From OCS116 cluster bacterium AG-435-F03 (GTDB taxonomy: Bacteria > Pseudomonadota > Alphaproteobacteria > MED-G09), in NCBI GenBank assembly GCA_003212795.1, contig QCOV01000003.1, positions 137,001 through 201,000 on the forward strand: a stretch of 64,000 nucleotides of DNA, written 5' to 3'. Both the position numbers and the translations under genes were made by a program. Shown piece by piece: positions 13,904 to 19,531 of this stretch. Under the pieces are notes generated by a model, which was not told the origin of the DNA, ran no database searches, and saw nothing but the letters and a program-made list of their open reading frames with translations. The first letter of the stretch is position 1. Each line of letters opens with the position of its first letter.

Positions 13904-14497
13904 TTAGAAAGGTTGTCTAGATTCTATAGCTTCGAGTAAGGTGCCGTCATCCATATAGTCTAGTTCACCACCAACAGGTACACCTCTAGCAAGTCTCGAT
14001 ACTTTCACTTCTGCTGCTGCCAACTGATCAGTAATATAATAAGCAGTTGTTTGGCCATCTATAGTCGCATTCATTGCTAGAATTACTTCTTTTGTTTCTT
14101 CTTTTAGAGCCCTTTGCACTAGACTTGAAATACCAATATCATCGGGGCTTATCCCATCAATTGCAGACAATGTTCCTCCTAAGACATGATACAAACCTTT
14201 ATGAACTGAAGCTCTCTCAAGAGCCCATAAATCTGCTACCTCCTCTACAACAATAATAGTTGATTTATCTCTACTCTCGTCTAGACAAATATAACATGGA
14301 CTTGATGTATCAAGATTCCCACAAATTGAACATTTTACGATAGAGTCAGCTGTACTAAGAAGTGATTTTGCTAAAGGTCTCATAAGAGAATCAGGTTTTT
14401 TTAACATACTTAAAGCCAATCTTCTTGCGGAACGCGGACCAATACCAGGCAATCTTGCCAACAATTCTATTAAGTTATCTATTTCTGTTTGGCTCAT
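13904..14497 (-). CDS. recR: Recombination mediator protein RecR
   Basis: Works with RecO (and RecF) to load RecA at gaps. The 197-residue protein has the helix-hairpin-helix LARLPGIGPRSARRLAL at the N terminus, a four-Cys zinc module (CSICGNLDTSSPCYIC, about 56-71) and a Toprim domain beginning IIVVEEVADLWALE and including GGTLSAIDGISPDDIG. It lies one base after dnaX. The ybaB/ebfC gene that usually separates dnaX and recR is absent here. Confidence 0.96.
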   Translation of the reverse strand: MSQTEIDNLIELLARLPGIGPRSARRLALSMLKKPDSLMRPLAKSLLSTADSIVKCSICGNLDTSSPCYICLDESRDKSTIIVVEEVADLWALERASVHKGLYHVLGGTLSAIDGISPDDIGISSLVQRALKEETKEVILAMNATIDGQTTAYYITDQLAAAEVKVSRLARGVPVGGELDYMDDGTLLEAIESRQPF

Positions 14498-14498
14498 T

Positions 14499-16208
14499 TT
14501 AGTTTTCTATTTTATTTACTGATGTAATTCTTGATTCAGGGAATGCCTCCAAGACTTTCTTCATTTCATCAGTATTGCTCAGTTCATCAATAATATCATC
14601 CTGTTTTTGTTTTTGTTTTTCTAAAATAGTATCTTCACCCTGCTTTGCTGAAACATTAATAACCCATCTTTGCTCAGTCCATTCATATAACTTTGCAATT
14701 AAATCTTTAATAATTTCTTCATTACCATTGGGAGTATTGATATTGATATGCCCAGTTTCAAAACTAACTAAACGAACATCTTCTTGTAAAAATTTCTTCA
14801 AAATCAAATTTTTATTTTCGCCAGCAATTTCAATAATGTCTTCAAAAGACTTAATTGTAGAAAGGTTTTGCTCTATTACACCAGGGTTATGATTTAAAAC
14901 TTTTTCTTCAGTTACTTTTTTAGTTAATTTTTTTTTTTTATTTTGGCCTTCTGTATCGACAGAATTAATAATTTCCTCTGGGGTAGGCAAATCAGAAACA
15001 TAGGCCATCCTAATTGCAACCATTTCTAGAGCAGAATATGGATTAAATGAATTTTTAATTTCTTCATTGGCCTTTAAAATCATTTGCCAGAATCTAGATA
15101 GTTTTTTTACATCTAAATTTTCTTGTAATGCGATCAATTTAGAAAAATTTTCTGGTCCCAAAAGAAGATTATCATTTTTATCATTCGATACTTTCAATAC
15201 TGTTAATTCATGAATAATCTCTCCTAGACTCGAGATTATATTTAATGGTTCTGCTCCTCTATCTGTTTGCAATTTAATCTCGTCAAGCGCCTTTTGGATA
15301 TCACCTATTACTATAGATTCAAATAATTCAATAATTGCTGAATTATCTGATAAACCAAGCATTTCTCTTATAGCGTTCTCATCTATATTTGGGTCATGTT
15401 GTGATAGAGTTATTGTTTGATCTAAAATTGACAAACCATCCCTTGCTGAGCCTGAGGCCGCCTTTCCTATTATAGATAATATATTTTTGGGAATATCAAC
15501 ATTTTCATTATCACAAACTTTTGAGAGAAGGCTCATCATGTCTGTTTCATCAAGTTGTTTTAAATCAAATCTTTGGCATCGCGATAAAATCGTCAAAGGT
15601 ATTTTATGAACTTCGGTTGTAGCAAATATAAACTTAACATGAGCAGGTGGTTCTTCAAGTGTCTTCAATAAACCATTGAAAGCAGATTTAGAGAGCATAT
15701 GAACCTCATCAATAATATATATTTTAAATCTAGCTGATGTAGTCGAGTAGCTTACGGAGTCTATTATCTCTCTAATATCAGCAATTCCAGTTCTTGAAGC
15801 TGCATCCATTTCTAAAACATCAATATGTCTTGATTCCATAATCTCTTTACAATGATAACCATGTTTAGAAATATTAATCGTTGGCTCATTAATTTCTTCT
15901 GAAGAATAATTTAATGCTCTAGCCAAGAGTCTTGCAGTCGTTGTTTTTCCTATTCCTCTTACACCTGTTAACATATATGCATGTGCAATTCTCCCTGAAG
16001 AAAATGCGTTGCTTAAAATTTGGACCATTGTTTCTTGACCCAATAAATCTGAAAAGTTTTGTGGTCTATATTTTCTTGCTAAAACTCTATAAGGCTCTGT
16101 ATTAGAATCTTCAGTATTGCTAGTATCCAAAAAGCTATCTTGATTTTCATCTTCTATTGTGGGTGAAGAATTTGTTTCTTCTAAATCTTTTTCTTGTGGA
16201 TGTTCCAA
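14499..16208 (-). CDS. dnaX: DNA polymerase III subunit tau/gamma
   Basis: AAA+ subunit of the clamp loader; tau also binds polymerase and helicase. Domain order in 569 residues: RVLARKYRPQNFSDLLGQ (41-58), Walker A GVRGIGKTT (82-90), DEVHML (167-172), sensor 1 ATTEV and arginine-finger region SRCQRF, clamp-loader collar to about 405, then a C-terminal tau region. Start is TTG at 16208 with a GAGG site five bases upstream; no in-frame ATG precedes the conserved core. The zinc module is degenerate (Y101, S114, G117, only C120 kept). A run of 12 A residues at codons 424-427 could yield a gamma form by slippage. Confidence 0.94.
   Translation of the reverse strand: MEHPQEKDLEETNSSPTIEDENQDSFLDTSNTEDSNTEPYRVLARKYRPQNFSDLLGQETMVQILSNAFSSGRIAHAYMLTGVRGIGKTTTARLLARALNYSSEEINEPTINISKHGYHCKEIMESRHIDVLEMDAASRTGIADIREIIDSVSYSTTSARFKIYIIDEVHMLSKSAFNGLLKTLEEPPAHVKFIFATTEVHKIPLTILSRCQRFDLKQLDETDMMSLLSKVCDNENVDIPKNILSIIGKAASGSARDGLSILDQTITLSQHDPNIDENAIREMLGLSDNSAIIELFESIVIGDIQKALDEIKLQTDRGAEPLNIISSLGEIIHELTVLKVSNDKNDNLLLGPENFSKLIALQENLDVKKLSRFWQMILKANEEIKNSFNPYSALEMVAIRMAYVSDLPTPEEIINSVDTEGQNKKKKLTKKVTEEKVLNHNPGVIEQNLSTIKSFEDIIEIAGENKNLILKKFLQEDVRLVSFETGHININTPNGNEEIIKDLIAKLYEWTEQRWVINVSAKQGEDTILEKQKQKQDDIIDELSNTDEMKKVLEAFPESRITSVNKIEN
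14928..14939 (-). other. Homopolymer A12 in dnaX, candidate slippage site
   Basis: Twelve consecutive A on the coding strand encode K424-K427. Gain of one A leads to a stop after Ile-Asn (429-residue product); loss of one A leads to a stop after Asn (427-residue product). E. coli gamma is 431 residues. Whether slippage occurs is inferred. Confidence 0.5.
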
Positions 16209-18512: not shown

Positions 18513-19531
18513 AAAAATATACTAAATTTATTTTTTTTTTATTTCTTATAATTCTAATCAGTTCTGTAAGTTATGCGAAACCTCACAAACAATTATCAGA
18601 TTATAACTTTTTTAAAGATATAAAGAATCAGATACCGAGAGACGAGACTGTTCCTTATAAAATAGCTAACCCACTATTCTCAGATTACTCATACAAATTT
18701 CGTTTTGTACACATGCCATTAAATACAGCTGCAGAGTATTCCTATAATAATGTTTTCAATTTTCCCATTGGCACAACCATCATCAAAACCTTCGCTTACC
18801 CTATAGATGAAAGAGATTTAGATAAAGGTTTTCAACTTTTAGAAACGAGACTTTTGATAAAAAATAAAAATGGTTGGGAACCTTTGAGCTATATCTGGAA
18901 TAATGAACAAACAAACGCATTTCTAAAGTATACAGGTCATACATTCAATGTCAGCTGGATATCAAATAATGGACAAGAGAAGTATGTCAGATATAGAGCG
19001 CCGAATGTAAATCAATGTAAAACCTGTCATGAGATTAATAATAAAATACAACCCATCGGTCCAAAGGGTCGTAATATGAATATAAATTTTGTTTATCCTA
19101 GTGGGGAAGCTAACCAAATAGATTTTTGGCATGATAGAAAATTATTAAATAATATTCCTACACCTCTAAAAAGAAATCCAGCAATCTGGGATGATGCAAA
19201 ATATGGAATCAATGAAAGAGCAAGATCATATTTAGATGCAAACTGTGCTCACTGTCATCAAAAAGGTGCCTCTGCAAGTAATTCAGGTTTTTACCTTAAC
19301 ATAGATGAAAATAATTCTTCTATTTTAGGAATATATAAAACACCTGTAGCAGCGGGTAGAGGAAGTGGCGGACTGAAATACATTATTGATCCAGGAAATC
19401 CTGCTGATTCTATTTTATTATATAGAATGCTTTCTACTGACCCTGGCGTAATGATGCCTGAGTTAAGTAGAAATCTTCAACATGAGGAAGCAATACCATT
19501 AATAAGAGAATGGATTAGCCAACTAAAATAA
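18506..19531 (+). CDS. SO2930/HNE_0200-type diheme c-type cytochrome
   Basis: Exported c-type cytochrome of 341 residues. After the signal peptide (about 1-24, ending VSYA) there are two CxxCH heme sites: C171-C174-H175 and C247-C250-H251. The region between resembles the conserved family described as partner of the parallel beta-helix protein, whose gene overlaps this one by 7 bases. A C-terminal MMPEL provides a possible axial Met. The reaction is unknown; an electron-transfer role for the partner is inferred. It ends 13 bases before the convergent amt gene. Confidence 0.85.
   Translation: MVKKYTKFIFFLFLIILISSVSYAKPHKQLSDYNFFKDIKNQIPRDETVPYKIANPLFSDYSYKFRFVHMPLNTAAEYSYNNVFNFPIGTTIIKTFAYPIDERDLDKGFQLLETRLLIKNKNGWEPLSYIWNNEQTNAFLKYTGHTFNVSWISNNGQEKYVRYRAPNVNQCKTCHEINNKIQPIGPKGRNMNINFVYPSGEANQIDFWHDRKLLNNIPTPLKRNPAIWDDAKYGINERARSYLDANCAHCHQKGASASNSGFYLNIDENNSSILGIYKTPVAAGRGSGGLKYIIDPGNPADSILLYRMLSTDPGVMMPELSRNLQHEEAIPLIREWISQLK

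Follow-up and report, generated by a model that had tools for sequence, protein, structure and literature searches.

The window, the whole 64,000-nucleotide stretch of DNA that was analysed, carries on its minus strand a dnaX gene (14499–16208) whose open reading frame encodes a full-length, tau-form DnaX of 569 residues from a TTG codon and matches PRK09111 (705 bits) and TIGR02397 (404 bits). The residue numbering is set by this TTG, which is a likelier start than ATG because the next in-frame ATG, 60 codons downstream, falls inside the conserved N-terminal domain. Pfam matches on the same strand comprise the clamp-loader ATPase part (PF13177, residues 57–219; 15552–16040), clamp-loader domain III (PF12169, residues 275–415; 14964–15386) and the tau-only C-terminal domain (PF12362/DUF3646, residues 453–564; 14517–14852). 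The recR gene directly follows dnaX (window 13904–14499), and ybaB, which is found after dnaX in other families, is missing there; YbaB (PF02575) gave no match in the seven PS1-order genomes searched and was matched in eight control genomes.

Between the end of PF12169 and the start of PF12362, 25 residues ahead of the latter, lies a run of twelve A on the coding strand (T12 on the plus strand, 14928–14939), which occupies codons 424–427 within the sequence CAA AAT AAA AAA AAA AAA TTA ACT AAA. Each shifted frame meets a stop almost at once, 1 and 5 nt 3′ of the run: the +1-frame TAA (minus strand, 14924–14926) is reached when the run loses one A or gains two, and the −1-frame TAA (minus strand, 14920–14922) when it gains one or when the ribosome shifts by −1. 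Gain of one A thus gives ...KKKK-I-N-stop (429 residues) and loss of one gives ...KKK-N-stop (427 residues), and the sequence confirms the initial annotation both in the position of the run and in the lengths of these two products. As the run follows the clamp-loader domains and precedes the tau-only domain, a shifted product (predicted, 427–429 residues; minus strand, 14920–16208) would be gamma-like, retaining PF12169 and lacking PF12362.

This arrangement resembles that of Thermus thermophilus dnaX, in which transcriptional slippage on an A9 run, with stops in both frames, produces gamma at about 1:1 (PMC1088944, PMC5009743). The window gene shares with it an open tau frame, a pure A run of at least nine past the clamp-loader domains, near the tau/gamma boundary, and close stops in both shifted frames. 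The differences are that the run is A11–A13 in the PS1 clade (the OCS116 cluster, Alphaproteobacteria), the genus to which the window belongs, compared with A9 in Thermus; that PS1 is an AT-rich marine alphaproteobacterium with a PF12362-type tau C-terminal domain; and that slippage here is predicted from sequence.

To place the run in its genomic context, all long A/T runs in the genome (1,444,043 bases) were located. The dnaX run is the sole A12/T12, and A/T runs of at least 10 occur at 11 places genome-wide. Besides dnaX, one of these lies deep within an open reading frame (a T10 at codon 94 of 343), and the remainder lie no more than about 10 codons from a gene end or outside any open reading frame of at least 90 residues; the dnaX A12 is therefore the only sense-strand A run of at least 10 deep in a gene. 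Synonymous codon shuffling of 797 open reading frames (856 kb, comprising one 792 kb contig and the window, from this single genome) gave an expectation of about 35 coding A runs of at least 10, against 4 observed (a depletion of about nine-fold), and of about 14 runs of at least 11, against 1 observed. In the same reading frames AAA makes up 82% of lysine codons, and KKK is encoded as AAA AAA AAA in 18 of 101 cases, against 56 expected. From this depletion it follows that the genome selects against long A runs, and dnaX, with the longest run, is the exception. By the reasoning applied in PMC1088944, such avoidance suggests that the polymerase of this genome slips on long A runs. The initial annotation had raised AT-richness and a second run, the T10 at 18531, as a caution; the T10 lies at codon 9 of 341, near a gene end, and chance from AT-richness as the source of the A12 is ruled out by the synonymous-shuffle null. 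The dual stops are also uncommon, since both frames are closed within 5 nt after 23 of 1040 runs of A7 or longer (~2%) and at 4.9% of codon boundaries drawn at random. A stop in one shifted frame alone carries little weight, because AT-rich DNA has many of them.

Conservation was assessed in seven genomes of the PS1 genus, which have a shared history, so that agreement in all seven does not amount to seven independent events. The run is present at the same site, uninterrupted and in frame, in every one of them (A12 in four genomes, A13 in two and A11 in one), whereas A11+ runs other than that in dnaX number 0–3 per genome. It is retained in a linker that is only 48–94% identical to that of the window (flanks, 82–99%) and in which the residues at the run vary (KKKKL, KKKKI, KKKNI). 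The TAACTAA motif 3′ of the run, which stops each shifted frame, is invariant, so that dual stops lie within 5–6 nt of the run in 7/7 genomes compared with 2–5% by chance. The expectation that a functional run and its immediate stops in both frames would be kept among relatives is thereby borne out, and no AAG codon, the interruption that would speak against it, breaks the run in any close relative. Sequencing error is an unlikely source of the run, because the reading frame stays open in each of seven separate assemblies, whether the run has 11, 12 or 13 A's, with compensation in the codons that come next. In the two sister genera, an A10 (one genome) and an A9 (9/9 genomes) are each followed by a −1 stop 3–4 nt downstream. 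The open-frame DnaX of the A10 genome (L020 in G007, sister genus g2) has 513 residues, with a region after the run much shorter than in other genera, and a large part of its tau C-terminal region seems to have been reduced.

The main rival explanation is that gamma is produced at this site by ribosomes rather than by the polymerase. In E. coli, dnaX gamma results from a −1 programmed ribosomal frameshift, at a similar site in the gene and with the same outcome (gamma of about 430 residues). A comparable shift without stimulators could take place at the A_AAA_AAA within the PS1 run, which is in frame, is a ribosomal slip site in its own right, though a weaker one, and is followed by a −1-frame stop 4–6 nt past the run. 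Unlike E. coli, the PS1 genes contain no A_AAA_AAG heptamer (the tract lacks AAG in 7/7 genomes, with only A_AAA_AAA present), show no shared upstream Shine-Dalgarno stimulator (duplex energies of −3.4 to −0.1 in four genus genomes, around a background with a median of −1.9 and a 5th percentile of −7.1) and no downstream stem-loop (folding z-scores near 0, about −0.8 to 1 in the seven genus genomes, based on mononucleotide shuffles); the Rfam dnaX element has no match in PS1 dnaX either. Moreover, a heptamer does not need 11–13 A's, and the +1 stop is conserved as well. We therefore consider ribosomal frameshifting in the PS1 run unlikely, though it deserves more weight than the other alternatives discussed below.

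Together, these results make it probable that the A12 is a selected recoding site, at which Thermus-type transcriptional slippage would give rise to both tau and a gamma-like DnaX. RNA polymerase would slip on the A12 to generate dnaX mRNAs that differ in their number of A's; those with 12 or 12 ± 3n would be translated into tau (569 residues), and the others would run into one of the two shifted-frame TAAs to yield a gamma-like subunit of 427–429 residues that keeps domains I–III without the tau C-terminal domain. Transcriptional slippage is favoured in PS1 by the pure run of more than nine A's and the stops in both frames, together with the lack of a shared Shine-Dalgarno sequence, structure or A_AAA_AAG. 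The original suggestion that this lineage makes tau and gamma the Thermus way is thus supported by the conservation of the run and of both stops, by the A9–A10 runs with a shifted-frame stop in other genera, and by other alphaproteobacterial families, described below, in which the tau domain is reached only by recoding at such a run. That slippage takes place in the cell, with what efficiency, and that it is mainly transcriptional, we infer, the last because stimulators of ribosomal shifting were looked for and not found.

To determine how far the arrangement extends, 168 alphaproteobacterial dnaX loci were surveyed; the sample is biased to small genomes and close relatives, so the figures that follow are not class-wide frequencies. 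The density of A9+ runs was higher in the linker than in the DnaX core at every GC content: 3.43 compared with 0.089 per kb below 0.35, 1.61 compared with 0 at 0.35–0.42, 1.74 compared with 0 at 0.42–0.50, and 0.31 compared with 0 above 0.50. These counts bear on the reading that the run is neutral, arising simply because the linker is lysine-rich and the genome AT-rich. The linker is indeed variable and rich in lysine, the preference for AAA noted above would promote such runs, and amino-acid content and the codon usage of each gene predict 18.8 linkers with an A9+ run; yet 46 were observed, while the same null accounts fully for the DnaX core (4 observed, 4 expected). As the genome avoids such runs, and as the PS1 run persists while neighbouring residues change and both stops are conserved, a neutral origin appears very improbable. 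On the DnaX tree the A9+ trait requires at least 16 changes, whereas shuffling the labels gives a mean of 40; the trait is clustered by clade, yet has been gained or lost many times.

The survey also informs on mechanism. In three families (f22, f39 and f90) the +1 frame has the nearer stop after the run, a stop that a −1 ribosomal shift would leave unused. Several other families contain A_AAA_AAG or A_AAA_AAC within A9–A10 runs, with a −1 stop, and at one locus (L109) A9 and A10 runs in the dnaX linker are each followed immediately by a −1 stop. Nine loci place the tau domain in a shifted frame, in all nine the −1 frame, as a ribosomal −1 shift would also yield. These last observations, the heptamers with −1 stops and the uniform −1 direction, lend some weight to the ribosomal alternative, and transcriptional and ribosomal mechanisms may both operate within the class.

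Five of the nine shifted-tau loci have an A9–A10 run with a zero-frame stop after it. In three genomes (family f6) the zero frame ends in KKKS-stop or KKKP-stop, with PF12362 matched in the −1 frame (E-values of 1e-26 to 1e-28), and in two (family f139, GC 0.52–0.53) it ends after A9–A10 with tau in the −1 frame. Because the tau domain follows a zero-frame stop, recoding is needed to make tau, and it is far likelier that these A runs are used than that one defect is common to five assemblies. The two families match a layout described by GeneTack, in which 17 dnaX genes have tau in a shifted frame, 12 of them with A7–A10 (PMC3711429); PS1 differs in that its tau lies in the zero frame. At a further locus (f154; L230, G263) the zero frame ends after a T9, and the tau domain is matched weakly in the −1 frame. 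Elsewhere the slip site is not homopolymeric: in both genomes of f58 (L149, L128) the −1-frame tau domain follows CCCCCAAAG, whose C_CCA_AAG has the form of a heptamer for −1 ribosomal slippage, and in f106 it follows A5G5, where a strong Shine-Dalgarno match is accompanied by a stem downstream (z −4.1), features that set f106 apart from PS1 and count against a ribosomal shift in the latter.

A last alternative is that gamma arises by proteolysis of tau, the run being of little importance. Caulobacter belongs to the same class and has the same kind of short DnaX, its gamma1 and gamma2 arising post-translationally from ClpXP processing, with no recoding (PMC5422525). Proteolysis leaves unexplained both the kept run with its dual stops and the families in which the zero frame ends after the run, and we regard it as the least probable of the explanations considered. 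Slippage on an A run is a known mechanism; what is new is the lineage and the breadth within a class whose gamma was reported from ClpXP proteolysis. In the open-access literature searched, no paper was found that describes slippage in PS1 or as a feature of Alphaproteobacteria in general, although this does not prove that none exists. Whether A-run recoding of dnaX is an old and widespread route to gamma (or tau) in Alphaproteobacteria, with three layouts repeatedly swapped (an open tau frame with gamma from slippage, an open gamma frame with tau from slippage, and sites of ribosomal type, for example C_CCA_AAG), we judge to be evenly poised; if so, the Caulobacter ClpXP route would be one of several substitutes in the class. 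This touches on the old question of whether bacteria need a short DnaX beside tau, and why it is produced by such different routes. One class combines the protease route, known for Caulobacter from the literature, with what appear by sequence to be both slippage layouts and ribosomal-type sites, and several routes in one class allow a direct test of the two-form clamp loader as the target of selection. In the window genome, the dnaX run is one site where a genome that avoids runs appears dependent on a slippage-prone one.

Finally, the survey includes short DnaX frames that have no A run; some stop at a contig end, some have no tau domain and some have a −1-frame tau after other slip sites. 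For seven loci from several families (L164, L218, L194, L170, L171, L199 and L227), no tau domain was detected in any frame. Some of the short DnaX proteins without a tau domain finish in a remnant that resembles the last helix of that domain (FPNAKV).
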